Source: Armatimonadota bacterium
GTDB lineage: Bacteria > Armatimonadota > Fimbriimonadia > Fimbriimonadales > Fimbriimonadaceae
Length of the DNA stretch: 64,000 bases
Assembly: GCA_018268335.1 (NCBI GenBank)
Contig: JAFDWT010000062.1
Location: 1 to 64,000 of the forward strand
Reading direction: 5' to 3'
The notes beneath the pieces were generated by a model. It was not told the DNA's origin. It saw nothing but the letters and a program-made list of their open reading frames with translations, and ran no database searches. A program made the position numbers and the translations under genes. Of this stretch, positions 2,792 to 35,173 are shown piece by piece. Each line of letters begins with the position of its first letter. Position 1 is the stretch's first letter.

Positions 2792-2804
2792 TAGCATTTA
2801 AGTG

Positions 2805-2836
2805 TCGCCAGGGGTGCACACACCCACTTCTGGCGA
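2805..2836 (+). terminator. Nested hairpin between pilB and pilT
   Basis: Outer stem TCGCCAG/CTGGCGA and inner stem GGGTG/CACCC around a CACA loop. There is no T-tract directly after it. A -10-like TACAAT follows at 2845, so this may be an attenuator or a weak terminator ahead of a second promoter. Confidence 0.4.
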
Positions 2837-2844
2837 TGCTTTGG

Positions 2845-2850
2845 TACAAT
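2845..2850 (+). promoter_or_regulatory. -10-like hexamer TACAAT upstream of pilT
   Basis: TACAAT lies 51 bases before the pilT ATG and just after the hairpin. It has the same hexamer as upstream of pilB. No clear -35 box. Confidence 0.3.
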
Positions 2851-2900
2851 GGGGCATCGCCATCGAGCATCTATTGCCGTAGAGTAGAGACCACACGCAC

Positions 2901-4115
2901 ATGCAGAATCCGAACGACTCCGCGCCTCCTGTAGCTCCGCCAGCACCGGCGGCGCCTCCGCAGGCGACCGAAGAACCCACGAGGGCCGGACAGCCGAAGC
3001 CGCTGGAAGACCTCCACATTGACGAGCTGCTCCACATCATCGTCGACCGGAACTGCAGCGACCTTCACATCTGCGCCCAGAGCGAGCCGATCATCCGCGA
3101 GGACGGCAAGCTGAAGCGGCTGAACTACGAGAAGTTCACACCGCAGCAGACGCAACGGATGCTCTATGAAATCATCAGCGACGACCAGGTGACCCGGTTC
3201 GAGCAGACCAAAGAGCTCGACTTCAGCTACCAGTTGCCGCGCCGGGCCCGGTTCCGCGTCAACCTCTATCGCGACCGAGGCGCCTGCGCCGCCGCGTTCC
3301 GCTTGATTTCAAGCCGGATTCCGACGACGGAAGAGCTTAACCTGCCTCCGCTTCTGAAGCAGCTTTCGGAGAAGCCCCGTGGTTTGATCCTCGTCACCGG
3401 CCCGACCGGTTCTGGTAAGTCGACGTCGCTCGCGGCGATGATCAACCACATCAATACGAACTTTTCGCATCACATCATCACGATCGAAGACCCGATCGAG
3501 TACCTGCACCAGCACAAGCAGTGCGTCATCAACCAGCGCGAGTTGGGCGGCGACACGCTGAGCTTTGCGAACGCGCTGCGCGCCAGCCTTCGCGAAGACC
3601 CGGACATCCTGCTGGTCGGTGAGATGCGCGACATGGAGACCATCGCCTTGGCCATCACCGCCGCTGAAACGGGCCACTTGGTCTTCGCAACGCTGCACAC
3701 CAACAACGCGGCCGAATCGATCGACCGTATCATCGACGTCTTCCCGCCGGGACAGCAGGAGCAGATTCGCGTCCAGCTGTCCAACAATATCGTTGCTATC
3801 ATCTCACAGCAATTGCTCCCCAGGGCGAGCGGCCCCGGCCGTATCCCCGCCAACGAGATCATGGTGGCCACTCCCGCCGTCAGGAACCTGATCCGCGAGA
3901 ACAAAACCCACCAGATCCCGTCTATCATCCAGACCAGCGCTGCGGCCGGCAACGTGACCATGGACCAGTGCTTGCGCGACCTGTACATGAAGGGATTGAT
4001 CACCCTCGAAGAAGCCTTGACGCGTTGTATGAACGTCGAAGAGCTGAAGAAGATGATCAACCTGGGTGGACCCCCGACATCGGGCGGCAACGCTGGCCCG
4101 CCAAACCGAAGGTGA
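2901..4115 (+). CDS. pilT: Type IV pilus retraction ATPase PilT
   Basis: Hexameric ATPase that disassembles pili, giving twitching motility and DNA uptake. The 404 residues start with a roughly 35-residue Pro/Ala-rich stretch not found in classical PilT. The PilT N-domain follows (ELLHIIVDRNCSDLHICAQS), then Walker A GPTGSGKST at residue 167, the Asp box, Walker B EDPDILLVGEMRD, and the His-box-type ETGHLVFATLHTNNA. The C-terminus ends in a Gly/Pro/Asn tail. Presence of PilT favours a retractile type IV pilus over a pure type II secretion system. It is 8 bases from pilC. Confidence 0.95.
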   Translation: MQNPNDSAPPVAPPAPAAPPQATEEPTRAGQPKPLEDLHIDELLHIIVDRNCSDLHICAQSEPIIREDGKLKRLNYEKFTPQQTQRMLYEIISDDQVTRFEQTKELDFSYQLPRRARFRVNLYRDRGACAAAFRLISSRIPTTEELNLPPLLKQLSEKPRGLILVTGPTGSGKSTSLAAMINHINTNFSHHIITIEDPIEYLHQHKQCVINQRELGGDTLSFANALRASLREDPDILLVGEMRDMETIALAITAAETGHLVFATLHTNNAAESIDRIIDVFPPGQQEQIRVQLSNNIVAIISQQLLPRASGPGRIPANEIMVATPAVRNLIRENKTHQIPSIIQTSAAAGNVTMDQCLRDLYMKGLITLEEALTRCMNVEELKKMINLGGPPTSGGNAGPPNRR

Positions 4116-4123
4116 GATGAGAC

Positions 4124-5365
4124 ATGCCCGTATTTAGCTACACGTTCAAAGACGCGACCGGCGGCCTGCAAAAGGGCACGGCGGAGGCGGAGTCGGAAGA
4201 AAGGCTGAAGCAGCGCTTTACCGAGCAAGGGCTCGAGATCGTCGAGCTTCAGATGATCAAGAAGGGCACGACGCAGAAAGCCCGTGGCTTCGGCAAAGTC
4301 AAGCTGAAAAAGCTTGCCGTCTTCTGCCGCCAGTTCTCCACCATGGTCGACGCGGGCGTTTCGCTGGTCCGGTGCTTGGACGTTTTGTCGCGCCAGACCG
4401 ACGATCCTAAGCTTAAGCGCATCTTGCTCGACATCGGTGAGCGGGTCGAGGGTGGTGAATCGCTGAGCCGCTCGATGCAACGGCACCCGCGGACGTTCAA
4501 CAATCTCTTCATCGGCTTGATCCGCGCCGGTGAGATCGGCGGTGTCTTGGAAGAGTCGCTCCAGCGCCTTTCCGAGTTCTTGGAGAAGGACGTCGCCCTG
4601 CGCCGCAAGGTGACGTCGGCTTTGACCTACCCGATCCTGGTCATGGTCGCCGCAGTCGCGATCGTCATCTTCCTTGTCACCTGGGTCGTCCCGCAGTTTG
4701 CCAACCTGTTTAAGGACATCGGACTGAAGGAAGAGGACTTCCCGGCGATGACCAAGTTCCTGTTGGACCTCTCGTACAACCTGACGAAGAACGGCCTGAC
4801 CATCGCGATTGTCGTCGTGGCGATCGTGATTGGCTACAAGCTGTTCGTCAGCACGAGGTTCGGGCGGCGGACGATGGACCGCGTCAAGCTCATGGTCCCC
4901 GTCTTTGGCCCCCTGCACCACAAAGTCTGCATGACTCGGTTTTCACGCACGATGGGCACGCTGCTCTCGTCGGGTGTACCGATTTTGCAGGCGATGGAGA
5001 CCGTGGCGGGAACCGTCGGCAACTCGATCATGGCCGACGCGGTGCTTGACGCCCGCGCCCGCATCCGAGAAGGCGACCGCATCGGCGACCCGTTGGAGGC
5101 GAGCAAGATGTTCCCGCCGATGGTCGTCCACATGATCGGCGTCGGTGAGGAGTCCGGTTCGCTCGACTACATGCTGGCCAAGATCGCCGACTTCTACGAG
5201 TCCGAGGTCGAGGCGACTCTTTCTTCGTTGACGGCGGCGCTTGAGCCATTGCTCATCGTCTTCCTGGGCTTTGTTGTCGGCTTCATCGTCATCGCGATGT
5301 TCATGCCGCTCATCAAGGTCATTGAAAAGCTGTCCTCGGGTGGCGGCGACGACGCTGGCGGCTAG
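4124..5365 (+). CDS. pilC: Type IV pilus inner-membrane platform protein PilC (GspF family)
   Basis: Polytopic inner-membrane platform that couples the PilB/PilT motors to the growing filament. The protein is 413 aa, the usual size. Two T2SF domains are visible. The first begins near LAVFCRQFSTMVDAGVSL, followed by a membrane segment (YPILVMVAAVAIVIFLVTWV). The second begins near RFSRTMGTLLSSGVPI, with a C-terminal helix (LLIVFLGFVVGFIVIAMF). A third helix (GLTIAIVVVAIVIGY) lies between. The C-terminus is a short Gly/Asp tail. Co-transcribed with pilT. Confidence 0.95.
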   Translation: MPVFSYTFKDATGGLQKGTAEAESEERLKQRFTEQGLEIVELQMIKKGTTQKARGFGKVKLKKLAVFCRQFSTMVDAGVSLVRCLDVLSRQTDDPKLKRILLDIGERVEGGESLSRSMQRHPRTFNNLFIGLIRAGEIGGVLEESLQRLSEFLEKDVALRRKVTSALTYPILVMVAAVAIVIFLVTWVVPQFANLFKDIGLKEEDFPAMTKFLLDLSYNLTKNGLTIAIVVVAIVIGYKLFVSTRFGRRTMDRVKLMVPVFGPLHHKVCMTRFSRTMGTLLSSGVPILQAMETVAGTVGNSIMADAVLDARARIREGDRIGDPLEASKMFPPMVVHMIGVGEESGSLDYMLAKIADFYESEVEATLSSLTAALEPLLIVFLGFVVGFIVIAMFMPLIKVIEKLSSGGGDDAGG

Positions 5366-5386
5366 TTCCGTCCATAGGTGATAAAT

Positions 5387-5429
5387 TGGCCCCTGGCTCT
5401 GCACTGCAGGCCAGGGGCCACCGATTTTT
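5387..5429 (+). terminator. Intrinsic terminator after pilC
   Basis: Perfect 11-bp stem TGGCCCCTGGC/GCCAGGGGCCA with a 12-base loop, followed by CCGATTTTTA. It would end or attenuate the pilB-T-C transcript before pilD, which begins 54 bases later. Confidence 0.75.
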
Positions 5430-5482
5430 ACTAGGGCGGGTATCCTTGCGCAGGCGGGGGGCGCCACGGAGGGCGTAAAGAC

Positions 5483-6565
5483 ATGTTTCCCGAATGGACG
5501 AGCCTGGTCGGCTTTTGGGTTGGGGCGACCATCGGCAGTTTTCTCAATGTGGTGATCTACCGGTTGCCACGCGGCCTCTCGATCGGCCAGCCGCGCAACA
5601 GCTTTTGCCCCAACTGCAAGAACCAGCTGTCTTGGGGCGAACTGATTCCGATTCTGAGTTGGCTGTTCCAGCGCGGCAAGTGCAAGCAGTGCGGCGTCAA
5701 GATCAGCCCGCGCTACCTGGTCGTCGAGCTCGTCAACGGGCTCTTTTGGGCCGTCATCTGGCACCAGCATTTGGTCTTGGGCCAATACAACTCAGGTTCA
5801 GAGGTGGTGAAAGCGGTCGGGTTCATGTGTTTTGCCTCGGCCCTGCTGGTCGCGATCTGCACCGACATCCAGTACTACATCATCCCCGACGAGGTCAACG
5901 CGATGATGCTGGCGATCGGGCTGGCGATGAACGTGGCCTTCGTGTCGCTCCACGACCCCGTTGCTTGGGCGGGGCGCTGGCCCTCCAGTGTTTTGGGTGC
6001 GTTAGTCGGCGTCGGTGTCCTGTGGGGGATCGCCTTTTTGGGTCTGGTGATCTTCCGCAAAGACGCGATGGGGCATGGTGACATCAAGATGGCGCGCGGC
6101 ATCGGCGCCGTGCTCTTGTGGCAAAGCGCCTTGGCCAGTTTTGGAATCGCCGTCGGCTTGGGTGCTGTGTTTGGCATCCTCATGATCTTTCTGCGCAAAG
6201 GCATCGAGGCGCGGGCGGAGGCCAAAGCTCGAGAGCTTGCGGCAGCAAGTGGTGGTGACTACAAGCCCCAAGAGGAGGAGGACGACGAACCCTATGAGCC
6301 GGAGTCCATTGGCTCTTTGCTCTTCTGCGGTCTGGGTTACGTGCTGTGCATCGACGTGATCGGGCTGTTTATCCCGCGACTTTACGAGTGGTGGTTCAAG
6401 GAAAACCCGCGCTCCACCGAGGAGATTGAGGACCAACCTGAGGTAGAACCGACGATGATCCCGTTCGGGCCCTATTTGGCTGCCGGGGCATTGGTGGCGA
6501 TGGTGTTTGCAGGGCCTCTGGACCAGGCGATGCAGGCTTATATCCGGTACATGTCTGGGAAATAA
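5483..6565 (+). CDS. pilD: Prepilin peptidase / N-methyltransferase PilD
   Basis: Inner-membrane aspartic protease that cleaves the leader of prepilins and methylates the new N-terminus. The N-terminal DiS_P_DiS methylase domain carries the two zinc cysteine pairs (CPNC at residue 42, CKQC about 25 residues later). The A24 peptidase domain has catalytic Asp128 (CTDIQYYIIPD) and Asp200 (GHGDIKM). At 360 aa it is longer than the usual 250-290. The extra part is an acidic cytoplasmic loop (EEEDDEPYEPE) and additional C-terminal membrane segments. It sits directly before the genes for its likely substrates. Confidence 0.93.
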   Translation: MFPEWTSLVGFWVGATIGSFLNVVIYRLPRGLSIGQPRNSFCPNCKNQLSWGELIPILSWLFQRGKCKQCGVKISPRYLVVELVNGLFWAVIWHQHLVLGQYNSGSEVVKAVGFMCFASALLVAICTDIQYYIIPDEVNAMMLAIGLAMNVAFVSLHDPVAWAGRWPSSVLGALVGVGVLWGIAFLGLVIFRKDAMGHGDIKMARGIGAVLLWQSALASFGIAVGLGAVFGILMIFLRKGIEARAEAKARELAAASGGDYKPQEEEDDEPYEPESIGSLLFCGLGYVLCIDVIGLFIPRLYEWWFKENPRSTEEIEDQPEVEPTMIPFGPYLAAGALVAMVFAGPLDQAMQAYIRYMSGK

Positions 6566-6626
6566 AATGAGGAACATGCGGGAAACTTTTCTCGTCAAAC
6601 TTGGCTGTAAAGCGGAAGTGCAAAAA

Positions 6627-14800: not shown

Positions 14801-15225
14801 TGGCCCAAGCCCAGCACGAGCGGTACCAGCAGTACGGCAACTCGCCTGAGGTGCCGTTCTACGGGGAGCCTCTGGACGTGCGGATCACGATCTTCGGCTC
14901 GATTAGCCAGAACATGCCGGCTCCGATCGGCCAGCAGGTGGAGTGGCTGAAGAAATGGGGCTGGATCCCGCGACGGCTCGGGGCGACTGGCATCTACACG
15001 CCGCAGATCCACATGGGCAGCGTCAACCCGAACACGCCGGCGGCGGTGGCTCCGAACCTGAGGCTGGTCTATGACCCGATGTTGGCGACGGCCGGCGTCC
15101 CTGGCGACGCGGTCAGCCCGGCACTTGTGCCCGTGCGCACCGACTCGAACGGCAACCTTTTGCCCCCGATGCCGCGACTGCCGGTGAGTCCGACCCTGGC
15201 CTTCTTTGGAGACGTGAACCCGTGA
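11887..15225 (+). CDS. Giant PilX/GspK-like membrane-anchored protein
   Basis: N-terminus has a basic segment (MDIQRRRPTNHRQQAGQ), then a single hydrophobic helix (TLVIAIIILAVLLILGLAFAGVV), then SQKRTVTEDLARAGSDFVHH. This layout is typical of PilX/GspK minor pilins: a helix followed by a T..LARAG motif. The usual Glu at +5 is absent, as in GspK. ATG 11887 has a GAGG site 5-8 bases upstream and was preferred to TTG 11878. At 1112 aa it is 3-5 times larger than GspK or PilX. The large extracytoplasmic part has no domain I recognise. The stop codon overlaps the next start (GTGA). Confidence 0.75.
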   Translation: MDIQRRRPTNHRQQAGQTLVIAIIILAVLLILGLAFAGVVSGNIQGASRSQKRTVTEDLARAGSDFVHHQMLYSSLGADWRPDPTPPATAGNFTRDPDAYYTRPGTFMAVTPDPAHPTVQIVDRGGPDYLGPYAKLVYNKGRALVRVRYAPSDYNAYAAPTGDLRQPGAARSYTIIESVGRSGQTTTDGRLDPSLLLADSVQILGLPDAAALVASVGKLKAADAQVTDSKKLSAFASIGFIESAMFITNKDKQSRAAEIGAPTSLPGSPLWFNNTNASASYEGVDVAIPISIGDDLGANTFNGSTASWAQIPGFGSFYSNADVKFYGSTSFVLNKGLGEQVNIAGSIQPGNDASSVAVKSFLYNRGADQFQWDPAGSVNLNGQAMSSDNPSFTTAKGALNDKHGGTDVNGYGRNIGRKEPPLITRLDPADNRNRYDVLTRLNGPLNANGQNIASWGWGGGIYLDSPERGNRQTEEERETLDPAKALPNDWLNPNNANSKGWQGPYYIPVATYVLFTGDGFSITRDSRSRSKFWRYPDTGGTTWTDPVGGQPRGNVSTVHFWVRYVAADNKTYIVNDVQAPNFNPNVSDTAFKTWTVNNKVVAQEFNGVIQAAGDVRTRGVIPTDVQITLVTMGSAYVEGSLVKGVVARDPATGAPSTLGRPTRSALAVLAKDFVTLNTTQFFAPAPGESPQAKSGDGVADTPNPVELDSTKPDLRLMAQFLLNPSNANPTTWQPYARLYSTGGIALGQPISSNLLFSLSADDGGPSFASLDISTATMADSSPVTGTFLWPGRYNFIGSSGVYATENYNDAGSFFVPPAPPAAPAPWNVPVLGLGDAGVNAYPKFMTVAAPVFDRANGGFWNAYNPVTRKLTSTASNPEGLYALSMQDPTLFDLRLNPVGGGATKNWLVSRTAVAPFDVRIEACLSAEEGSFFVIPGNWFNTNPLDTRPRFESRIVELGGNLTSANYGGGDILAQAQHERYQQYGNSPEVPFYGEPLDVRITIFGSISQNMPAPIGQQVEWLKKWGWIPRRLGATGIYTPQIHMGSVNPNTPAAVAPNLRLVYDPMLATAGVPGDAVSPALVPVRTDSNGNLLPPMPRLPVSPTLAFFGDVNP

Positions 15226-19961: not shown

Positions 19962-19965
19962 GCTT

Positions 19966-25900: not shown

Positions 25901-27111
25901 ACAGCGCCGCCCGCATCGACCTAATGTTCACGGCCAAGCTCCGTGGCCGCCAGTTCGCCGAGGCGTTCTTGGGCCGCATCACGGCCAGTAGCGTCAGCGG
26001 ATCGCCGACCGGCGCTCCTGGTGGCAGCGTGCGTGTCGTGCCGTTCACCAATCGCACGGACAAGCTGGAGGTCGACCCGGCCACGGGCACCTACTTCGCA
26101 CCCGGCGTGCAGTGGTCCTCGAGCGAAGTCGGCTTGAACACGATCCGGCTGAAGTACACGGCGGTCGACGGCAGTGGCAATGCAGTGCTGCGCGATGTGA
26201 TCGACCCGATTTCAGCCAGCCGAGTGGTCGACCTGACCAACTCGGAGCTCGTCTATGACTCGGCCCTGGGCGGCAAGGTCTACATGGACATGAACGCCGG
26301 CACGGTCAAGTTCTCTGGAGCGATCATTCCGAGGAACATGCAGCTCTACATCACGTATAGTCCGCAGTTCATCCGGATCAGCGCGGCCAGGGGCGGCGAC
26401 TACCGCGGCGTCTCGGCGGTGTTGGACGAAAGGTTCTTGGGAATCTACGTCGCGCCGAACGCCAACCGCAGTGACGAGAACCTGGTCAACGACCTCAACT
26501 ATTGGGGCAACAGCGTGAACGGCCGCCCGGCCAACAACGATCCGGTCCGGTACGACCGGTACGTCGTCACGTCGGCGAAGACCTCGTCGGACGGCAACCA
26601 GGCGACGAGGCCGGTCCTGCAAACCCTGCGGTACGGCATCGTCTTGCCGGCTCCGGTGGCGGTGAACCCGAACGGTACGGTTGTGAACTTCAAGGTGACG
26701 TTCTTGGGTGTGATACCGGAGACGCCGTTCTATCAGATCGACCCGGCCAACGGGCGGGTGTACTTCACCTCGGTGATGGAAGACCGGCCGGTCCGCATCG
26801 TCTACACGGGCGTGGACGGCAACGGCAACCAGATCCCGAACATCGTGCTAGGCACCTCGGCGACCAACGTCCCGGTGGTGGGCTTGATCACCGAGCGGCC
26901 TGAGGAAGCAGTGCCGATCGAACAGGCGGCCAACGAGTCGGACGTCTCGCTGGCGGTGGACCCGTACAACATCGCGTTCAACCCGCTCGACCCGAGCATG
27001 CGCAGGCCTCCGCTGTTGTGGATGTTCTGGACCAGTGCCCGCGCCGGTGTGCCGGACGTGTACTTCCAGACCCTGGCGCCGCGCTGGGCTCCTCAGCCGC
27101 CGTCTCCCTAG
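19966..27111 (+). CDS. Giant exported protein (2381 aa) with golvesin-like and PQQ-propeller-like regions
   Basis: ATG 19966 gives a basic N-region and hydrophobic core (GPLLVAAIALFALFAGAQ), an export signal. Two regions near the N-terminus end in VYADAVRAEG and VVADAVRFVT, the ending typical of golvesin-like carbohydrate or surface-binding domains. From about residue 566, repeats such as DVVIAADETGHIRCMDAHG, LLVIGSANGRVYCIDMAG and LYIGDTKGFLYAFTS form a PQQ-like beta-propeller. The remaining roughly 1400 residues are unassigned. Starts 5 bases after the preceding gene and is followed by a strong terminator, so it closes the block. A cell-surface or filament-tip role, with possible adhesion, is inferred from signal, domains and operon position. 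Confidence 0.6.
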   Translation: MEPRRQSSTTTMGRAKPGPLLVAAIALFALFAGAQDYRMHRGGGQRTGKATIQTGTVDPETTWNNGGRGFLRWWDPIFSIGGLTDNDDSTTVETPANSWVNPAPGTVGSDFVTLASGFYQADLTHAPYRWATTVAQTIGSTDPRTGATTTYRWTIAGLIPGQEYAVSVSVPVGPTNTAPTLPVDNSNPLKFGQRYYVFDVVDANGTDLRVVDSTNGGAFIRFGETEAKVYTADLSGHINVRLYNTTPRGTDGQFLDPTASPGVDLVYADAVRAEGAVTATGGYKASPVVGELLNTPFLGGATLFPQRVVSARNEPLFVGNLGEQYSVGEVTSFTHNGQVVDPSSPLRRNMVWSWPGRRPNDLTQAEKDRFATELTNFVNGPNPTDTRAQVRRVVDDLDPLTAASGNFISANDPLYTPLGATYFKSPVSGSVTGGVRYKADQFVDGRYFIDVYVPTGAPAVDLATNVEIQVFQGGTQIDTVTINESTQRGWIRLAVTDPDGGSGINHTSLFPVSVVITDHSSVAQDSLDGRSVVADAVRFVTKSDLSISSTPAMVSASVRDGVTLANRDVVIAADETGHIRCMDAHGNSTTGAQPKVFWTYPTEVSAGDPNAALTEDGGVATMPTKFDLSSAVVMHVGAIDLLVIGSANGRVYCIDMAGRGDGTTKRMWTYPDDFRPDAPTTPFATPLPPVRGSVAAATVAGQDAVIVAVAGKVLALSAAGNPASKTTSVLWQYPPAVANFGEVAMTPTVAFGQVFFGAASLANPALGQFSALNVDTGALNWTITTDGVGNALGYMGSCSPAAVSGALVRPSDPTNWDSVFFVDGLGKLISVDPANGNVRWLTTEVKTMCDSSVTFTHMRQHDPAVPAVFEDAQPTVVVANRLGECQGFIADGRTYASGTHRNWLYTLEGDNPLSSFAAGGWPNQTGFPANRSHLYIGDTKGFLYAFTSVDDDNSTPPITPGTPPGSGNPNNGVTAQDLSFLTPDNIVLVAPDEFQSLQSKATQGSLSYAQVSAVATSSVQRRAFEMGENLYVVVWNVPASTDSPTAGYGIEFNTYSNLRVQQRRQTQIRDVTGAPSGKGGVAFYSLPCLPTGQGGMTPGYNFIKARAFLAGQSNVRGADASLKATVNSPSPATLGDVTVANPLAVFFPTRDAVNGFGANSIGNTTDAALASSIANGSNGVDSGGIGGPTNHFLKASWPANPASAASDTLEPGAYFGTTPSTMGEYVSHGSAAVAEMDVRDRSLLTLQYGDSRGLANVRMSSSDFAWMPRTNTRALLPDASTPGQPVYDPVNDLGVDRPLNQGTNKSAWKYRNFEDYPWAYPNKSLDYPDVSRGALSVVKGATGEAQNPFIQTVNLAPPAITAANRTAYGTRAGYEAQMVRTLVSTPFELRVDVPKYQPANLMDYRGRQYVYVDSNNSFGLEDTYRSIGMGIRVGEDKRLSTSTPTVDLNSLPSGGGYNGHVSGSPDNGAIQPTDPNSAFKPYNPAYTTGNTAMFQPFTVLNQGNVNLLNVRISKQFDKVNGFNRLFRTVEIFGPQMQDLAWIDAKKNMLSDLDPQWSVPFRAGVDNQMVLPKPRPGDAAPTRMSRNPVYRSNANLRTAGGSLVPPTTGFETGDPRIGVAVPVGTPSGTYMRQIYAFENEGNDGDANNPSLGPSAADTSVSEAYTDPAITLKFNVREARLTNSPTRKAAPNVDNLLAGGEKFFWSNRQPTAMRSGSGPLFVAWASNRMSNSTGTPDWLTPGRTSGSLASGDTWRIFVSANGGVTPVWDRLNPLADHSPMNDLDRALPLSTGLGAPDQRWFGPSLLFPLEGSINFNNLFTLGTGESMDFSRGPSGFQFGAPSFPTGGLYESLQSPTLSRADVSQRYLAFVGRGTKVGAGGDRSTVEQIMLANLSFSGGSVALNGLTAMPYDNAAGKSRPSIVQAGNNATVFYTGVSNGLGQIFTSTYDGTNWTGVRSVALGDQFENISAPTAILRRYQGSNSAARIDLMFTAKLRGRQFAEAFLGRITASSVSGSPTGAPGGSVRVVPFTNRTDKLEVDPATGTYFAPGVQWSSSEVGLNTIRLKYTAVDGSGNAVLRDVIDPISASRVVDLTNSELVYDSALGGKVYMDMNAGTVKFSGAIIPRNMQLYITYSPQFIRISAARGGDYRGVSAVLDERFLGIYVAPNANRSDENLVNDLNYWGNSVNGRPANNDPVRYDRYVVTSAKTSSDGNQATRPVLQTLRYGIVLPAPVAVNPNGTVVNFKVTFLGVIPETPFYQIDPANGRVYFTSVMEDRPVRIVYTGVDGNGNQIPNIVLGTSATNVPVVGLITERPEEAVPIEQAANESDVSLAVDPYNIAFNPLDPSMRRPPLLWMFWTSARAGVPDVYFQTLAPRWAPQPPSP

Positions 27112-27135
27112 GGCGAACCTGGCGAAGACGACGAA

Positions 27136-27177
27136 AACAGTCCGACCGACGACCATCGGTCGGACTGTTCGGTTTTC
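27136..27177 (+). terminator. Intrinsic terminator closing the giant-pseudopilin block
   Basis: Perfect 14-bp stem AACAGTCCGACCGA/TCGGTCGGACTGTT with a 6-base loop, followed by CGGTTTTC. It lies 25 bases after the 2381-residue gene and ahead of the pilM promoter. Confidence 0.85.
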
Positions 27178-27243
27178 AACCGCCAAGCTGTGACCAAGCC
27201 CGCGGGGACTGCGTCAATACTAACGCGGCCACCTCGCGCGAAG

Positions 27244-27273
27244 TTGACACGGCTCCCTTGGCGATGCTATCAT
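27244..27273 (+). promoter_or_regulatory. Sigma-70-type promoter for pilM-pilQ
   Basis: TTGACA (27244-27249), 18-base spacer, TATCAT (27268-27273). It lies 68 bases before the pilM ATG and just after the terminator, so the pilM operon is transcribed separately from the pseudopilin block. This is the best-matching promoter in the window. Confidence 0.7.
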
Positions 27274-27341
27274 CAAGGACGCCTGCGAAGCTAAGCAAGG
27301 AGAGCGGTCGTCGCCCTGCGACAGGGTCGGGTAAGTCCTCA

Positions 27342-28553
27342 ATGGCCAAAAAGTACACCAGTATCGTCGGGGTCGACATTGGAAGTCAGACCATCAAAGT
27401 CGCAGAAGTCCGCCTGGCTGGCAAACAGCCGACGGTCACTGCCATCGGCATGGCCATGACGCCAGAGGGTGCCGTCGACCATGTGGGTGTGCATGACCCG
27501 GTCGCCGTCGGCGCCGTGCTCAAACAGGTTTGTTCTCAGTGCGGAGCGAATGTCGGCGACGCAGTGGTGTCGCTATCGGGCCAAGGCTCGGTGGTCGTCC
27601 GCACGCTCGAAGTCCCTGTCATGTCCGACAGCGAGCTGAAACAGCACATGGACTGGGAGATCACTCGCAACATCCCGTTCGCCGAGAGCGACGTGGTCAG
27701 TGACTTTGCCGCCTTCCCGGCCAACGGCGCCCAGAACATGGACGTCGTCATGGCGATCGCGACGCAGTCAACAGTGAACGTGATCCGCGACATTTTGAAG
27801 CGGGCCGGCAAGAAGCCTGCGGCCCTGGACGTCCAGCCGCTTAGCTTGGCACGGTCGCTGAAGACGAGTTACGAGTCGGAATACGCGGGCAAGCGAGTGT
27901 GCGTGGTCGACATCGGCCACAAGTCGAGTTCGATCAGTATATTCAACGACGGTAAGTTGGTGATGCCGCGACAAGTGCCGATCGGTGGCGAGATGTTCAC
28001 TCGCGCCATCGCCGATGCGATGTCGATCCCGTTTGCCGAAGCCGAGGGCATGAAGCACGCCAAGGGGCGGATACCTGATACGGCTGGCCAAGCTCCGGCC
28101 TTCAACCCGTTTGGCGACACCGGTTTCGCCACTCAACAGTTCCAGCCCTATAACCCGTTTGCCGAAACGGAAGAGGCCGCCCCGGCGGCGCCAGAAGAGG
28201 CAGCTCCTGCCGCACCGCCAGCCCCTGCTCCGGTGGAGACGGGAATGGACGCCGACGAGACGAAGCTGTGGAACGCCATGGCTCCGGTCGCCGACGAGTT
28301 CGTCAGCGAAGTCCGGCGGTCGGTCGATTACTTCCGCAGCAAGGGCGGTGACGTGGACGTCATCCTGCTCTGTGGCGGTGGTGCTGGTCTTCGCGGTGTG
28401 GCTCCGTTCATCCAGTCGGTCGTGGGCATCCCGACAAGTGTCTTTGACCCGACGAAGGGCCTCCCCGTCACTGCTAAACATGCCGATGATCTTGAGCAGG
28501 AGAAACAAGAGTTCGCGGTCGCCATCGGCAACGGCCTCCACATAGCCTTTTGA
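27342..28553 (+). CDS. pilM: Type IV pilus inner-membrane assembly protein PilM (first copy)
   Basis: Actin-like cytoplasmic ATPase (FtsA fold) that binds the PilN cytoplasmic tail and links the motor to the envelope complex. The start MAKKYTSIVGVDIGSQTIKVAEV carries the phosphate-1 loop; VCVVDIGHKSSSISIF is the phosphate-2 loop; ILLCGGGAGLRGVAPFI is the adenosine motif. The 403 aa include a roughly 60-residue Ala/Pro/Glu-rich insertion near residues 255-310 that is absent from typical PilM (about 350 aa). The upstream in-frame ATG at 27018 would run through the terminator and promoter and was rejected. A second PilM lies at 62384. Confidence 0.9.
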   Translation: MAKKYTSIVGVDIGSQTIKVAEVRLAGKQPTVTAIGMAMTPEGAVDHVGVHDPVAVGAVLKQVCSQCGANVGDAVVSLSGQGSVVVRTLEVPVMSDSELKQHMDWEITRNIPFAESDVVSDFAAFPANGAQNMDVVMAIATQSTVNVIRDILKRAGKKPAALDVQPLSLARSLKTSYESEYAGKRVCVVDIGHKSSSISIFNDGKLVMPRQVPIGGEMFTRAIADAMSIPFAEAEGMKHAKGRIPDTAGQAPAFNPFGDTGFATQQFQPYNPFAETEEAAPAAPEEAAPAAPPAPAPVETGMDADETKLWNAMAPVADEFVSEVRRSVDYFRSKGGDVDVILLCGGGAGLRGVAPFIQSVVGIPTSVFDPTKGLPVTAKHADDLEQEKQEFAVAIGNGLHIAF

Positions 28554-28566
28554 ACCAGGACACGCC

Positions 28567-29529
28567 ATGAAACTGAATCTTCTCCCGACCCACGTCGCGA
28601 CGCAAAGCAAGGCTCCGGTCTTTGCCGCGCTCGGTGCGACGTTCGCGGTGCTCGCTATTGGCGGCGCTGTGTTCCTGCAGGTCTCGTCGCAGGCCGACCT
28701 GAAGGACGCCAAGGAAAAGCTGGCCTCCAGCAAGCAGGGCGCTGCCGACGCGTTGGCCACTGCCAACCACGCCGAAGAAATTTCGAAGAAAGGCGAGGTC
28801 ATCAATACTAACTTGATGCTCGCCAAGGCGATGTTCAAGCACAACTCCGCTTATGTCGAGCTGTACGAGTCGATCATGCCGTACATTCCGGACTTCTACC
28901 GGGTGACGTCCATGACGGCCTCGCCGGGTGGGGCGGACACCTCGACGGTGACTTTAGTCGGGCAGATCGAGTCGTTCCGCAAGTACGCGGACGTTGCCTT
29001 GGCTTTCTGGCGCACTCCTGGAGTCACCAATGTGACCCGCGCCGGATTCCAACTCGATGATCCCTCTCGCGGGCCGATCACTGAGACCGACCAGTCCGGC
29101 AGTGTTGTCAAGCCGGGCGAGCAACCGCTTCCTTCTGATCCGTTGGACAAGATGGACGCCATTATCGCCCGCGCCAATTCAGCACCCGAGGGGTACCTTA
29201 ACACGGGGAACTTTGGTCAAGACGGTGGCGTCAAGGGCCCGATGCCGGGCTGGTCGACGGTCACGATCGTTTTGACCGTCAGCAAAGATTTGCGCACTCC
29301 GGATCCTCGTTCGACACTGGGCGGATCTGGCGGTGGCGGAGGCGGAGGCATCCCCGGCGCCCGTGGGCCCGGTGGTCCTGGCGGAGGATTCCCAGGCGGC
29401 CCGCCTCCTGGCTTTAATGCCGGAGGCCCTCCAGGTGCTGGCCCCGGCGTTGGTGCGCCCCCGAGCAACCCAGGAGCCGGTCGGGCTCCCGCAGGCGGCG
29501 GAGGCAGGGGCCGCGGGGACGACGACTAG
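28567..29529 (+). CDS. pilN: Type IV pilus assembly protein PilN, with long Gly/Pro-rich C-terminal tail
   Basis: Bitopic inner-membrane protein. The start MKLNLLPTH is the PilN cytoplasmic motif that docks into PilM. Next come one membrane helix (APVFAALGATFAVLAIGGAVFL), a periplasmic coiled coil (DLKDAKEKLASSK) and a small alpha/beta domain. The last roughly 80 residues are Gly/Pro/Ala-rich low complexity (GGGGGGIPGARGPGGPGGG and similar), unusual for PilN. 320 aa compared with about 200 usual. 13 bases after pilM. Confidence 0.85.
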   Translation: MKLNLLPTHVATQSKAPVFAALGATFAVLAIGGAVFLQVSSQADLKDAKEKLASSKQGAADALATANHAEEISKKGEVINTNLMLAKAMFKHNSAYVELYESIMPYIPDFYRVTSMTASPGGADTSTVTLVGQIESFRKYADVALAFWRTPGVTNVTRAGFQLDDPSRGPITETDQSGSVVKPGEQPLPSDPLDKMDAIIARANSAPEGYLNTGNFGQDGGVKGPMPGWSTVTIVLTVSKDLRTPDPRSTLGGSGGGGGGGIPGARGPGGPGGGFPGGPPPGFNAGGPPGAGPGVGAPPSNPGAGRAPAGGGGRGRGDDD

Positions 29530-29550
29530 GTAAGTCGAGGCATAAGCGAT

Positions 29551-30339
29551 ATGAAACTAAGTCCAATCGTTTGGTTGTGGGTCGGTGTCGCTGTGGCCGT
29601 GACGGCCCTCAGCTATGGGTATTTCTGGCATTTCCAGCCGAATTCCAGCGAAGCCAAGATGGTCCGTGAAGCGGCCGCCGCTTATGAGGCTGAGGGTGCC
29701 AAGTTGCCCCAAGCGAAGAAGCGGTGCGAAAACGCCGAGGCCGAGGTTCGTCGGATCGGATCCGAGTGGCAAGCCATCGTCGGTGAGCACACTCCTCCTA
29801 TGTCGGTGGAGCAGGGCGGTATCAGCCTGGCTGTCGACCGCTATCACTTGACGGTCGATTCGCTAAAGTTCCGCGACAGCGTCCAGGCAGCGGTGAACGC
29901 GCAGGTCAAGAAGGGTGGGGTCAAGGTGATCCAAGGCCCGACGATCCCGCATCCCCCGACCGAACCGGACCAGATCGTCGAGGACTATTACAACATGCGC
30001 GGGTTCAAATTCCCGGCTTGTGTCTTCGATCTCGGCACCGTCACGGTGACTGGCACCTGGGATCAAATCAAGGCCAACATCGAGAGTTGGTCGTCGATGC
30101 CGGACTACTTGGCCGTCGCCGACGGTCTGGCCGTCAACGGCACTTCGCCCAATTTGACCGCGACGTACAACGTGACCGTCGTGGCCTACATTCGAGGCGA
30201 GAAGATCGCGCCGCCGATCGGTGCGGCTGCCGCCGCGACTCCGGCGGCCGGTGGGGCTGCTCCGGTTGGTGGGTCTCAAACTGGTGCGCCGGCTCAAGGT
30301 GCGAGGAACTTGGAAAGCGGCAGCGCTGGAGGAAACTGA
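29551..30339 (+). CDS. pilO: PilO-like inner-membrane assembly protein
   Basis: One N-terminal membrane helix (IVWLWVGVAVAVTALSYGYFW), then a coiled coil (AAAYEAEGAKLPQAKKRCENAE) and a small periplasmic domain. The GTVTVTGTWDQIKANIESW stretch fits the ferredoxin-like fold of PilO. The C-terminus is an Ala/Gly-rich tail. 262 aa. The assignment rests on topology and position between PilN and a PilP-like lipoprotein; sequence similarity is weak. Confidence 0.7.
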   Translation: MKLSPIVWLWVGVAVAVTALSYGYFWHFQPNSSEAKMVREAAAAYEAEGAKLPQAKKRCENAEAEVRRIGSEWQAIVGEHTPPMSVEQGGISLAVDRYHLTVDSLKFRDSVQAAVNAQVKKGGVKVIQGPTIPHPPTEPDQIVEDYYNMRGFKFPACVFDLGTVTVTGTWDQIKANIESWSSMPDYLAVADGLAVNGTSPNLTATYNVTVVAYIRGEKIAPPIGAAAAATPAAGGAAPVGGSQTGAPAQGARNLESGSAGGN

Positions 30340-30341
30340 CA

Positions 30342-31070
30342 ATGGACAAGAATTGGACACGCAATACGATCTGGGCCTTGGCTGCAGCAGCTGTCGGCCT
30401 AGCAGGATGCCAGGCCGCGCCTTCCGAACCAGATTCTCCGGCCACAGGCACGAACAAGTTTCAGGACACTTTGGCCAAGACCCGTCCGGCCGACGCCGGA
30501 GTCGAGCTTGGCACCAACCCTTCTGAGGGCCTGCCGGACTCGCCGACCAAAGCGAAGACGATGGCCTTTGCCAGCCGCAACGATCCGTTTTCTCTGCTGG
30601 CTGCCGAGTTGAAATTTGACCGCGCGCAGGCTGCGGAAAGGCTGCAAGCAGAATCCGGTGGCTTCAACTCTGAATACTCCGAACCCGAGGAGACCGAGGC
30701 CGAATTGCCGCGGCTCCAGCCCAAACCGGCCTGGCGGCTATCCGGCATTATCATCAGTGAAGGTGGTGTGGTCGGTTTGCTCGATATGGGCACGGAGGTG
30801 ATCCAGATTCGACCGGGCATGTCGATTCCGAACAGCCCATATACAGTCGTCTCGGTCGACGGCCAGCGCGCAGTGTTGCGCCGCAACGACGGCCAACTGC
30901 CTAAGGACATCACCATCGAGCTTTCGGGCCCGATCGGTGGCGGCGGTCAGCTTGGCGGCGGCAACGCTGGTGCGCCTCCAGCAGGCGCAGGCGGCGGTCG
31001 GCGAGGCCCGGCAGGATTCAACGCCCCAGGTGCTGGCGGCGGCAAGCAAGGGGGAGGGGCGAAGGACTAA
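30342..31070 (+). CDS. pilP: PilP-like lipoprotein with Gly-rich tail
   Basis: Lipoprotein signal with a clear lipobox (VGLAGC, Cys22). The mature part contains RNDPFSLLAAELKFDR and a small beta domain (WRLSGIIISEGGVVGLLDMG... VIQIRPGMSIPNSPYTVVSVD), as expected for PilP/GspC homology regions that bind the secretin N-domain. The last roughly 50 residues are Gly/Ala/Pro-rich. 242 aa. ATG 30342 lies 2 bases after pilO; the longer frame from 30018 overlaps pilO and was rejected. Confidence 0.75.
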   Translation: MDKNWTRNTIWALAAAAVGLAGCQAAPSEPDSPATGTNKFQDTLAKTRPADAGVELGTNPSEGLPDSPTKAKTMAFASRNDPFSLLAAELKFDRAQAAERLQAESGGFNSEYSEPEETEAELPRLQPKPAWRLSGIIISEGGVVGLLDMGTEVIQIRPGMSIPNSPYTVVSVDGQRAVLRRNDGQLPKDITIELSGPIGGGGQLGGGNAGAPPAGAGGGRRGPAGFNAPGAGGGKQGGGAKD

Positions 31071-31198: not shown

Positions 31199-31891
31199 AT
31201 GAAAACCAATTTGAAGTCGATCTTGACCATGGCAGCTGCAGCCGCGCTCTTGGCCGCGCCGTTGCTCTTGGTCGCCCAAGACGGCGGAGCCCAGGATCCG
31301 CGCAACACGGTCATCCCGTCCATTGAGCTGGACCAAGCCGACGTCCGCGACGCGCTGAAGATTCTCTTCCGCACCGCCAACGTGCAATACACGGTCGACC
31401 CGACGGTGCAAGGCCTCGTGACGGTCAACCTGAAAGACGTCCCGTTTGAGACCGCCCTGCGCAATATCCTGAACCAAGTCAATGCGACATGGCGCGTCGA
31501 CACTGGCGTCTATAACATCATTTTGAAACCGACGACGGAGGCTCCTAACCCGACCGACCCGAACGTCGTGCCGACGACTCCGACCAACGCGATCATCAAG
31601 ATCCCGCTGCGCAGCGTCGATCCGTACCATCTGGTCGCCCTTTTGTCTGGTCAGGACAGCCAGCAGTCGGTTCCTGAAGTCTCGACGAACATCGGCGGCT
31701 TTGGCGGCGGCGGCGGTGGCTTCGGCGGTGGCGGCGGCTTTGGTGGCGGCGGCATCGGCGGCGGCTTTGGCGGCGGCGGCTTCGGTGGTGGTGGCGGCGG
31801 CTTTGGTGGCGGCGGCGGCGGCTTCGGCGGCGGCGGCTTTGGTGGCGGCGGCTTCGGCGGCGGCGGTGGTGGCGGCGGTTTCGGTCGCTGA
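31199..31891 (+). CDS. Stand-alone secretin N-domain (STN) protein with poly-glycine tail
   Basis: Signal peptide (MKTNLKSILTMAAAAALLAAPLLLVAQ), then a secretin/TonB short N-terminal domain (IELDQADVRDALKILFRTAN ... LRNILNQVNATWRVDTGVYNII). Next is the beginning of an N1-like region (TNAIIKIPLRSVDPYHLVALL). Instead of the secretin pore, the last roughly 70 residues are almost only Gly and Phe (GGFGGGG repeats). 230 aa. It is periplasmic and immediately upstream of the full secretin. It could be an accessory ring, a peptidoglycan or PilP adaptor, or the remnant of a split secretin. The Gly tail is clean and in frame, with no sign of a broken longer gene. Confidence 0.75.
   Translation: MKTNLKSILTMAAAAALLAAPLLLVAQDGGAQDPRNTVIPSIELDQADVRDALKILFRTANVQYTVDPTVQGLVTVNLKDVPFETALRNILNQVNATWRVDTGVYNIILKPTTEAPNPTDPNVVPTTPTNAIIKIPLRSVDPYHLVALLSGQDSQQSVPEVSTNIGGFGGGGGGFGGGGGFGGGGIGGGFGGGGFGGGGGGFGGGGGGFGGGGFGGGGFGGGGGGGGFGR
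31692..31888 (+). repeat. Low-complexity GGC/GGT glycine-coding tract
   Basis: About 200 bases of GGC, GGT and TTC codons coding for Gly-Phe repeats at the end of the STN protein. A shorter similar tract (about 32574-32700) codes for the linker of the secretin. Prone to slippage in multiples of three. Confidence 0.8.
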
Positions 31892-31927
31892 GACAGACAG
31901 ATTGGGATTGGAGGATACTGGGATAAC

Positions 31928-33571
31928 ATGAAGAGCACATTCAAGGCGACCGTGGCCGCGATCAGCTTCACGGCGATGACGGCCATGGCCGCACTTGGCG
32001 CGGCGCAGGACAGCGCACTGGCGACACGGGTTGATCTCGTCCTTCGGGACGCCGACCTGCACGTGGCCCTGCAAGCGCTGACGCGCCAGACGGGCATCAA
32101 GTTTGTGGTGGACGGCAGTGAGAGTCTGGAACTCAAGAAGATCTATCTCTCGCTGACCGACGAGACTGCCGACAACGCGATCCAATACGTCTGCCAAGCG
32201 GCAGGCGCCTATGCGGAGCGCGACCAGAACGGCGTCTTTGTCATCCGGCCCATCAACAAAAAGCCGGTCGAGACCAAGATCCAGCCGTCTGTCGCTAGGC
32301 CGACGATCACCAAGAAGTGTCGCTTGATGAAGGCTGACCCTGAGGCGGTGCTCCACCTCATGAAGGGGGACAAACCCTTCGCTTCCGATCATTACATGGA
32401 AGAGCTGGACAAGTATCAGCGCCAGCTCACCCACACACTTTCGAGCTATCCCAGCTCGCAGCTGACCGTGGTCGCGGGTGGTGAATCCAAAACCTACGGC
32501 GGCGCGATGAACTACTCCGACACGCAGAAGACCGGCCCGGCTTTGGCCCTTCCGGACGACGCCGGCAACCAGCGCGGTGGCTTCGGTGGCGGCGGTGCTG
32601 GAGGCTTTGGCGGCGGCGGCGGCCAGTTGGGTGGTGGCGGCGGTGGCCAGCTCGGTGGTGGTGGCGGCGGTCAGCTCGGCGGCGGTGCTGGTGGCGGATC
32701 CTTCTCGGGCCTGCAGGCCGGCCAAGGGTTCTTGCCACAGGGCGTCGACCGGCTCAGCTACGACCCGGCTGACAACAGCCTGATCTTCCAAGGTTCGGAC
32801 GAGGCGTATAAGAAGCTCCTTGACCTCCTGCAGATTTTCGACGTGGCGCCCAAGCAGGTCGTCATCAAAGTCGAATTCGTCACGACCAGCCGGTCGGCGG
32901 ACCGTTCGATCGGTATCGACTGGCTGTACGAGCGCGGTGGCACGTTCTTTGGCAACCGACCGGGAACTTTTGCCCGCACCAGCGACCCGGTCTTCATCAA
33001 CTACGCCACGGGCAACATCACCACGCGGCTGCGCACGATCATGACCGACGGTTGGGGCCGCGTTGTCAACGCTCCGTTGCTGCGCACGCTCAACAACCAG
33101 CCGGCTTCGGTGGCCCAGATCACGACGACGACGATCTTCTTGAACACGGTGACGGCGAGTGCGGGTGGCAACATCCTCTCGACCAACCCGTTCCCGCTGA
33201 CGATCCCGACGTTCTTGATCATCAAGCCCCGCATCAACGGCGACAACACGATCACCATGACGCTGAACCCGCAGATCACCACGATCGGCCAGGTGAAGCG
33301 CGGCCCAGACGGACAGGAAATCCCGGACTTCGTCAGCCAGCAGGTGAACGTGGTGGCCCGCGTCAAGGATCGAGAGACGATCGCCCTGGCTGGTATCACC
33401 AACAAGGCTGACACCTCGTCGGTCTCGCGGATCCCCATCCTCAGTGACCTGCCGATCGTCGGACAGTTGTTCCGTGGCAAGACGCAGAACTGGACCACCA
33501 GCGAACTGATCGTCTTTGTGACGCCCAGCATCGTGAGCGACGACGACTACGGTCTCGGCGCCGCCCCCTAA
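31928..33571 (+). CDS. pilQ: Type IV pilus secretin PilQ
   Basis: Outer-membrane secretin channel for the pilus. Signal peptide ending near AALGAAQ, STN domain (VDLVLRDADLHVALQALTRQ), an N1-like region, and then a Gly-rich linker (about residues 215-260). An N-type domain follows (DRLSYDPADNSLIFQGSDEA). The secretin domain has VVIKVEFVTTSRS and the signature VSRIPILSDLPIVGQLFRGK near the C-terminus, then ELIVFVTPSIV. 547 aa. No AMIN domain is visible. Typical spacing from the preceding STN gene (36 bases). Confidence 0.9.
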   Translation: MKSTFKATVAAISFTAMTAMAALGAAQDSALATRVDLVLRDADLHVALQALTRQTGIKFVVDGSESLELKKIYLSLTDETADNAIQYVCQAAGAYAERDQNGVFVIRPINKKPVETKIQPSVARPTITKKCRLMKADPEAVLHLMKGDKPFASDHYMEELDKYQRQLTHTLSSYPSSQLTVVAGGESKTYGGAMNYSDTQKTGPALALPDDAGNQRGGFGGGGAGGFGGGGGQLGGGGGGQLGGGGGGQLGGGAGGGSFSGLQAGQGFLPQGVDRLSYDPADNSLIFQGSDEAYKKLLDLLQIFDVAPKQVVIKVEFVTTSRSADRSIGIDWLYERGGTFFGNRPGTFARTSDPVFINYATGNITTRLRTIMTDGWGRVVNAPLLRTLNNQPASVAQITTTTIFLNTVTASAGGNILSTNPFPLTIPTFLIIKPRINGDNTITMTLNPQITTIGQVKRGPDGQEIPDFVSQQVNVVARVKDRETIALAGITNKADTSSVSRIPILSDLPIVGQLFRGKTQNWTTSELIVFVTPSIVSDDDYGLGAAP

Positions 33572-33595
33572 AGGCGACGTCTAGCAAAGAAATGT

Positions 33596-33632
33596 GCGGC
33601 GGGGGTCACAAGACCCCTGCCGCCTTTGTATT
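33596..33632 (+). terminator. Intrinsic terminator after pilQ
   Basis: 12-bp stem GCGGCGGGGGTC/GACCCCTGCCGC with one mismatch and an ACAA loop, followed by CTTTGTATT. It ends the pilM-Q transcript just before aroK. Confidence 0.7.
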
Positions 33633-33638
33633 CTAGGA

Positions 33639-34148
33639 ATGTCTGTGGCGCATTTGATCCTTGTCGGCATGATGGGCTCGGGCAAGACGACGGTGGGCCG
33701 TCTCTTGGCCGAGGACCTTGGCCGCGAGTTCATTGATGCCGACAGCGCGCTCCAGCACAAGCTGGGCCGTCCGATTCCGCAGCTGTTCAAGCTGTTTGGC
33801 GAAGAGGCGTTCCGACAGCACGAGACGGCTTATCTGCGGAGCCTGCCTGAGGGCGACGCGGTCATCTCCACCGGTGGCGGTGTGGTTATGCGTCCAGAAA
33901 ACTGGCGCGAGCTGAGGCGCTTGGGCCAGACCGTGTTCCTCGACGTCGATCCTCAGACCATAATCAGCCGCTTGGCCGTCTCGCGGCGCAAGAGGCCGCT
34001 GTTGGAAACCGAGAATTGGGAAGAGAAGTTCATGCAGATCTGGAACGACCGCCGCGATCTCTATCTCCAAGCCGATTTCCACGTCGTTGCTGAAACTGAC
34101 GAATTCTACGAAGTCGCCCAATTGATCCGACAGGCGGTCGGTCTTTGA
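33639..34148 (+). CDS. aroK: Shikimate kinase
   Basis: Phosphorylates shikimate at O3 in aromatic amino acid synthesis. 169 aa. The P-loop GMMGSGKTTVG is at the N-terminus. The shikimate-binding Asp (FIDADSAL), Arg (EEAFRQHE) and the STGGGVV motif follow, then the lid (SRRKRPLLE). ATG 33639 was chosen because the longer frame from 33594 starts inside the terminator hairpin. First gene of a seven-gene operon in which each gene overlaps the next. Confidence 0.95.
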   Translation: MSVAHLILVGMMGSGKTTVGRLLAEDLGREFIDADSALQHKLGRPIPQLFKLFGEEAFRQHETAYLRSLPEGDAVISTGGGVVMRPENWRELRRLGQTVFLDVDPQTIISRLAVSRRKRPLLETENWEEKFMQIWNDRRDLYLQADFHVVAETDEFYEVAQLIRQAVGL

Positions 34149-35173
34149 CGATCCGCCACTCTGCAGGGTCATACGAAATCCACTTCGGCGGCATCGTCGA
34201 ATCACTGATCGATTTGGGCCCCCGAGACTTCTTGGTCACCGACACGATGGTCGCCGCCCACTACGGGCCGTTTCCGCTCGATGACGATAGGGTGGCGGTC
34301 GTACCTTCTGGCGAGTCGAGCAAATCGATAGAAGCCTATTCCCAGTTGTTGTCCCGGGCAGCTCAGTCCAAACTGCGCCGCGATGGCCGGATCGTAGCCC
34401 TTGGAGGCGGCGTCGTCGGGGATCTGGCTGGCTTCTTGGCCGCCACGTATATGCGGGGCGTCAGCTTTTTGCAGGTGCCGACGACCTTGCTGGCGATGGT
34501 GGACAGCTCGATCGGTGGCAAAGTAGGGATCGATTTGCCCGAGGGCAAGAACCTGGCGGGCGCCTTCTATCCACCGACTCAAGTCCGCGTGGCCGTCGAG
34601 TTCTTGGAGACGCTGCCAGACCGGCATTTGGCCAATGGTGCGGCGGAGATTTGGAAGCACGCCTTTATCTCGGACGTCGGTCTTCTCAAACTCCTGTCTG
34701 AGGCACCGCTTCGCCCCGGCGACCCGCGGACCCTCGACATCGTCCAGCGCAGCCTGATGGTCAAGGCGCGGGTGGTGCAGGCTGACGAGTTTGAGACCAC
34801 TGGTCTGCGGGCGACGCTCAACTTTGGCCATACCATCGGCCATGCCCTGGAGAAAGAGTTGGGCTACGAGGGTCTGCTACACGGCGAGGCCATTGCCGCC
34901 GGCATGTACTATGAGTGCCTGGTCGGCGAGTCCATCGGTGTGACGCCGTCCGGCACTGCCGATGTCGTGAGGGAAGGTCTGGAAAGCCAGGGCCTACCGA
35001 CCCATCTGCCAATGAGCGTGGAACCCGAAGGCATGGTCGAAGCGATGAAGTTGGACAAGAAGGCACGCGGAGAGGGGCTGAGCATGAGCTTGCTGACCGA
35101 AGTCGGCGCGTGCAGTCTGACCCACGGCATAGACGAAAGGACCGTCTTGTCCGTCTTGGAATCTAGGCGATGA
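34145..35173 (+). CDS. aroB: 3-dehydroquinate synthase
   Basis: NAD- and metal-dependent second step of the shikimate pathway, converting DAHP to 3-dehydroquinate. 342 aa. Motifs: GGGVVGDLAGFLAATYMRGV (NAD binding), PTTLLAMVDSSIGGKVGID, and metal ligands Glu (NGAAEIWKHAF), His (NFGHTIGHALE) and His (HGEAIAAGM). TTG start overlapping the aroK stop by four bases (TTGA), which implies translational coupling. Confidence 0.95.
   Translation: MTIRHSAGSYEIHFGGIVESLIDLGPRDFLVTDTMVAAHYGPFPLDDDRVAVVPSGESSKSIEAYSQLLSRAAQSKLRRDGRIVALGGGVVGDLAGFLAATYMRGVSFLQVPTTLLAMVDSSIGGKVGIDLPEGKNLAGAFYPPTQVRVAVEFLETLPDRHLANGAAEIWKHAFISDVGLLKLLSEAPLRPGDPRTLDIVQRSLMVKARVVQADEFETTGLRATLNFGHTIGHALEKELGYEGLLHGEAIAAGMYYECLVGESIGVTPSGTADVVREGLESQGLPTHLPMSVEPEGMVEAMKLDKKARGEGLSMSLLTEVGACSLTHGIDERTVLSVLESRR

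Follow-up and report, generated by a model that had tools for sequence, protein, structure and literature searches.

A free-standing secretin N0 protein with a Gly/Phe tail is encoded directly ahead of pilQ in type IV pilus operons of Armatimonadota

In Armatimonadota, the type IV pilus operon includes an additional gene directly ahead of the secretin gene pilQ, encoding a small secreted protein in which a secretin-type N0 (STN) domain is followed by the initial half of an N1 domain and by a long Gly/Phe tail. The same protein is found in the same place throughout the phylum, which argues against a chance arrangement and, judged from sequence comparisons, it is probably a dedicated periplasmic subunit of the pilus secretin, adding an N0 layer or connector between PilP and PilQ.

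The gene was analysed in the window, i.e. the whole stretch of 64,000 nucleotides from an Armatimonadota genome of 3.09 Mb in 126 contigs, where the operon order is pilM-N-O-P-[free N0 gene]-pilQ-aroK-aroB. The free N0 gene (31199..31891, 230 aa) is complete according to its open reading frame, Pfam match and relatives, and a 36-base gap separates it from pilQ (31928..33571, 547 aa) on the same, forward (+) strand, on which all of the operon and cluster features given here lie. A PilP-like lipoprotein—assigned by position, a lipobox (LAGC) and a weak match to TIGR03021 (pilP_fam, E=0.09)—is encoded at 30342..31070 and is the likely partner of the free N0 protein. It is preceded by pilM, pilN-like and pilO-like genes (27018..30339), of which pilM itself spans 27018-28553 (PilM_2, 4.2e-43) and pilN and pilO are assigned from position and family conservation; aroK and aroB (33594..35173) are the usual genes downstream of pilQ. 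Further genes at 1-12 kb on the same strand encode PilB (MshEN and T2SSE), a second, PilT-like T2SSE ATPase, PilC (T2SSF) and a prepilin peptidase (Peptidase_A24), together at 1004..6565, as well as pilin-like proteins, and the window therefore contains a full type IV pilus cluster. The region that separates pilM from the pilin-like genes (11887-27111) encodes very large secreted-looking proteins of 1112, 1578 and 2395 aa with DUF4159 and PQQ-type repeats, possibly pilus-associated adhesins or substrates. Additionally, the source genome has a second T4P-type secretin cluster: a second pilM is located at 62420-63457 of the window and a second PilQ, an 873-aa frame with the order AMIN-N0-N1-pore, just past the window end (L123, G000:C85:65358-67979). 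No free N0 gene adjoins this second secretin in the 14-kb stretch that was read.

From its N-terminus onwards, the free protein comprises a signal peptide, N0, a variable linker, the first half of N1, a PExST motif and the Gly/Phe tail. The signal peptide (31199..31276; about 26 aa, MKTNLKSILTMAAAAALLAAPLLLVA/Q, with the cleavage site placed by eye) follows the n-h-c pattern and has equivalents in relatives; the protein would reside in the periplasm. Its N0 domain (31313..31531, residues 39-111) is of the canonical T4aP PilQ type. Pfam STN (PF07660) is matched with 31.6 bits against a cut-off of 28.4 (E=1.5e-7), and a profile of 67 relatives (A1) searched against the PDB finds the N0 of N. meningitidis PilQ (4ar0) at E=9.4e-12 and matches the structures of P. 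aeruginosa PilQ, V. cholerae PilQ and HofQ across N0 into β1-α1 of N1. In the AF2 model, N0 is confident (pLDDT about 90) and adopts the β-α-β-β-α-β-β fold; Foldseek with this model returns PilQ N0 (4ar0) as the best match and DotD of the Dot/Icm system (7mud) at rank 29. By Pfam, AF2 and Foldseek alike, the protein is thus a free-standing N0 domain as in the DotD/TraH-like class.

The adjoining part of N1 (31592..31651, residues 132-151, IIKIPLRSVDPYHLVALLSG) is confined to β1-α1, where both the profile and the hhalign matches stop, and is modelled as an uncertain lone helix; the second half is absent, leaving the free protein short of a complete secretin N1. A conserved PExST motif (31673..31687; about 80% P and E in an alignment of 67 relatives) then leads into the tail. 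ORFs and Pfam bear out the sequence-only reading in that the two genes lie side by side at these positions, that the first encodes a secreted protein without a match to the pore domain PF00263, and that the second encodes a full secretin with its own STN domain. The same reading had taken the first protein to be an STN domain followed by Gly/Phe repeats and nothing else; domain and tail are indeed present, but 'only' does not stand, since the half N1 is there as well.

The tail of the window protein (31694..31888) is 65 residues long, consists of 82% Gly and 15% Phe without any acidic residue, and ends in FGR. Its Gly codons are mixed (41 GGC, 12 GGT) and its Phe codons split evenly, which argues against recent pure slippage. 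Across 57 tails with 4170 residues—including one unlinked paralogue, the second copy in L076, that ends like the second half of N1—Gly accounts for 72% and Phe for 13.5%, with 6 acidic residues overall. The basic residues of these tails are concentrated at the very end (65 of 101 in the last 10 positions), and 50 tails terminate in R or F.

The neighbouring PilQ is a short T4P secretin without an AMIN domain that matches Secretin (PF00263, 6.5e-33), TIGR02517 and TIGR02515, with weak matches to Secretin_N and STN. It has its own, more diverged N0 (32027..32251), the first half of N1 (32306..32368), a Gly-rich insert inside N1 (32570..32737, residues about 215-270), the second half of N1 (β2-β3-α2, 32744..32839, from the Secretin_N match and the model) and the pore domain assigned by Pfam (33044..33535, residues 373-536). 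The Gly-richness of the insert is conserved, and the PilQ model shows a disordered stretch, Gly-rich in part, that separates two N1 halves of about 81-92 pLDDT each. In profile–profile comparison by hhalign, the conserved region of the free protein aligns with the start of PilQ (E=9.3e-23) and the alignment ends after the first half of N1. Because it ends there, and because the PilQ model has its Gly-rich insert within N1, the free protein resembles, in sequence and model, the initial part of a secretin severed at this insert. Coevolution of the tail with the PilQ insert was considered as well and rejected: their lengths give a rho of 0.21 (p=0.12) and most residue types show no correlation, Tyr alone correlating among seven residue types (p=0.003).

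Matches occur in 96 of 101 relatives and, at E<=1e-8, in 250 of 291 genomes of the phylum, some of the latter matches being other N0 proteins or secretins. The gene is immediately 5′ of pilQ in 59 loci, with pilP/pilO-like genes preceding it in most; these loci were located via the free N0 gene itself, with the neighbouring pilQ on one contig, and hence speak to position and not to frequency. For deep lineages, loci were fetched via pilM positions, and the same operon place is occupied in 20 out of 20. This includes G249, G248, G092 and G102, where the profile missed or nearly missed the gene and the ORFs clearly begin like N0, continue with a segment resembling half of N1 and finish in Gly-rich sequence. 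The sequence-only reading had suggested looking for the two-gene arrangement in related genomes, where it has now been found, and had regarded a frameshift joining the genes in relatives, or absence of the gene from close relatives with functional pili, as speaking against it. Neither such a frameshift nor a fusion was seen, and most of the apparent absences in close relatives, several in number, turned out to be due to contigs that break inside the operon or immediately ahead of it (L104-L112). As for the others, G029 and G047 measure 1.5 Mb and show a PilM signal that is slight or lacking, and the absence in G041, which has the second type of PilM only, is unexplained. The one clear exception is G170, whose pilQ operon has lost its copy: here, pilP adjoins pilQ directly (L114) and copies of the free N0 gene are kept elsewhere, with 11 matches past 1e-12 genome-wide.

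Paralogues also occur remote from pilQ. In G170, three tandem N0/half-N1/Gly-tail copies without an adjoining secretin are found beside a gyrA/parC-like gene (L113, G170:C87:1-2947), and tandem copies likewise lie by a gyrA/parC-like gene, with no secretin adjacent, in G173 (L115, G173:C101, locus 5052-7417). Unlinked paralogues in L118 (9285-10151, G062:C20) and L076 (1870-2796, G071:C205) end in 'TLLVDPATNRIIYIPPRR' and 'TDVLVSDIDNSVIVGDF', respectively; these ends resemble the second half of N1 following a Gly-rich stretch and are possible intermediates of truncation. Several loci (L020, L047, L050, L054, L055 and others) end in or near the Gly tail, L020 running into a cold-shock-like domain. 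Since Gly-repeat tracts break or apparently mis-join assemblies, the free N0 gene, like pilQ, is probably under-annotated in MAGs. Different arrangements of the STN domain occur, too. G000:C51 encodes a 237-aa protein with STN and a FecR_C-like domain and without a Gly tail (L122, 7059-7772) beside a gene whose product has an HxxxCxxC anti-sigma-like motif, and similar frames of 220-250 aa are present in many Fimbriimonadales genomes. An 810-aa protein in G119 (L121 5234-7666, G119:C1) joins a BlaR1-type M56 peptidase to STN/N0 and weak Secretin_N and Secretin matches.

The free N0 gene is likely restricted to Armatimonadota. The search spanned 392 genomes, reaching other phyla, and in the 34 genomes outside Armatimonadota that matched at E<=1e-12, the matches fall in frames of 427-1044 aa, i.e. 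of secretin-like length. Two of the 34 are exceptions, namely G418, where a contig end truncates PilQ, and G471, with an orphan lipoprotein. This orphan, a 253-aa lipoprotein-like protein with N0 and half N1 and no linked secretin (L125 6729-7490, G471:C22), breaks off behind the first N1 half, has no Gly tail and is possibly a parallel case. At the two outside loci examined, in G307 and G471, PilQ directly follows the gene in the PilP position. A plasmid search for the free N0 protein gave no match.

Comparison over 59 genomes reveals that the free N0 is better conserved (54% mean pairwise identity) than PilQ's own N0 (43%), with the secretin domain at 51%, and that the half N1 of the free protein (41%) likewise exceeds the first half of N1 in PilQ (26%). 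In the same PDB search, 4ar0 is matched at 9.4e-12 with the free N0 profile versus 2.7e-6 with that of PilQ N0; by sequence, the free N0 is closer to the canonical T4aP N0 than the N0 of PilQ itself. The two sets of N0 domains form separate clades (SH-aLRT 99) and the duplication is therefore older than the sampled lineages. Relative to the congener G001, the NG86 dN/dS of the free N0 gene is about 0.13 (dN 0.153, dS 1.15), similar to that of pilQ, indicating at the sequence level that it is under purifying selection. In Neisseria, PilP binds PilQ N0 via β1/α1 (PMC3441751), and GspC binds GspD N0 likewise via β1 and α1 (PMC3169554). Conservation of this PilP-binding type of face is 55% for the free protein compared to 44% for PilQ, yet the gap is larger in β2-β3 (53% versus 35%), so the conservation of the face is suggestive only and the excess not specific to it.

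How might such a protein work? In the reading we favour, a stand-alone N0 module would derive from the N-terminal part of a secretin, severed at the Gly-rich insert in N1, and would oligomerise into an extra N0-type layer between the HR-like domain of PilP and the N0/N1 ring of PilQ, offering PilP a canonical N0 docking face. Its half N1 could pack against PilQ or neighbouring free subunits, and the flexible Gly/Phe tail with its basic/aromatic C-terminal cap could span or fill the space by the Gly-rich insert of PilQ; binding to PilP and PilQ, ring formation and the role of the tail are what we would expect of such a subunit. This model draws on the conserved place between pilP and pilQ (59 loci plus 20 deep-lineage loci), on the homology of N0 and half N1 to PilQ, the canonical N0 score, purifying selection and the separate clade, on a free N0 that is more conserved than PilQ N0 and keeps the PilP-binding face, and on the precedents of the stand-alone N0 proteins DotD and VirB7-XAC2622. 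It is weakened by the uncertain model of the half N1, by a conservation excess that is not specific to the PilP face, and by the second, AMIN-containing secretin without an adjoining free N0 gene. Given the G170 operon without the gene and the extra tandem copies far from any secretin, tight linkage to pilQ is not obligatory, and the paralogues may do other work. The sequence-only reading had already proposed an extra ring or a connector between PilP and the secretin; this fits the position, selection, N0 type and precedents, but the half N1 and the PilQ insert had been missed. A further-reaching and doubtful version envisages a phylum-wide, two-gene hetero-oligomeric secretin, in which the free subunit docks PilP and contributes its half N1, the N0 of PilQ is re-tasked, and the Gly/aromatic tails would jointly give the periplasmic vestibule a flexible collar or mesh.

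The half N1 invites a different explanation, namely that the free β1-α1 replaces the first half of N1 in PilQ, or is swapped between free subunits, such that N1 would be built in trans and the secretin would be an obligate two-protein oligomer. The half N1 being more conserved in the free protein than in PilQ is in keeping with this, as is the expectation, from a weak model, that an isolated half domain should require a partner. However, PilQ retains its own first half, which models well with its second half, and some unlinked paralogues (L060/L118 and the second copy in L076) keep an end resembling the second half of N1; we consider complementation of this kind unlikely. The tail, in turn, could mark an exported or surface Gly-rich structural protein whose N0 does no more than target it to the secretin or pilus machine so that it is exported. 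Long Gly/aromatic tails, a capped C-terminus and multi-copy tandem paralogues without a linked secretin are compatible with this, but strict conservation resides in the N0 part and not in the tail, and the linked gene is kept beside pilQ phylum-wide, making this quite an unlikely account.

A small secreted protein whose gene adjoins that of the secretin, in an operon where no pilotin has been identified, might also act as a pilotin- or scaffold-like assembly or stability factor for PilQ outside the final machine, with N0–N0 contacts templating oligomerisation. We regard this as improbable: the window protein contains neither a lipobox nor any Cys, i.e. no DotD/TraH-type lipoprotein signal, and Pfam finds no pilotin or TPR family in it that would point to a pilotin fold. 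Finally, as the free protein is the counterpart of a shortened secretin N-terminus and assemblies break at Gly tracts, the gene could be taken for a broken duplicate or frameshifted secretin, whether pseudogene or Gly-repeat sequencing artefact. Tens of genomes in which the boundaries, the stop and the position are the same, a downstream pilQ with its own signal peptide, a dN/dS of 0.13 and an old, separate clade leave this idea with hardly any credibility, and we reject frameshift, fusion and relic alike.

It is at the N0 domain of PilQ that the outer-membrane pore meets the pilus machinery of the inner membrane. That a whole phylum has retained another N0 protein, encoded separately in the pilus operon, suggests that two gene products can together make up such a joint. 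The free protein offers a natural experiment on the roles of N0 and N1, and a function-linked identity is gained for a gene that most Armatimonadota genomes contain and that is easily passed over as a truncated secretin or low-complexity ORF. Among open-licence papers, we found none that describes a free N0 protein for a type IV pilus system or operon; the Fimbriimonas genome paper names PilB, C, D, Q, M and T.

Stand-alone N0 proteins are already known from T4SS core complexes. DotD (TraH of IncI plasmids), a component of the Dot/Icm type IVB secretion core complex (PMC2951367), is similarly small, consists of essentially one secretin-type N0 and a flexible region, and is part of an envelope-spanning machine. 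It differs in being a lipoprotein with an N-terminal flexible part, no half N1 and no Gly tail, shows poor sequence similarity and partners with DotC/DotH rather than a secretin; moreover, the free N0 gene is surrounded by type IV pilus genes and not by type IVB secretion genes. The Xanthomonas T4SS protein VirB7 XAC2622 also combines a stand-alone N0 with a flexible extension, oligomerises and has been proposed to form an outer N0 layer on the ring (PMC3093366), but is a lipoprotein partnered with VirB9 in a non-secretin machine. PilQ itself (TIGR02515; PDB 4ar0, 6ve2, 6w6m) agrees in sequence and fold across N0 and the first half of N1, whereas the free protein is a separate polypeptide that has a Gly/Phe tail in place of the second N1 half and pore, and adjoins a PilQ with its own N0-N1. 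In its genomic setting, it resembles PilW of Thermus thermophilus, an extra, lineage-specific and Gly-containing periplasmic protein that is encoded just 5′ of pilQ and is considered to provide a flexible link to PilMNO (PMC13039148). PilW, however, has a GspC HR-like domain and replaces PilP, whereas the Armatimonadota operon has a PilP-like protein plus an N0-like extra protein.
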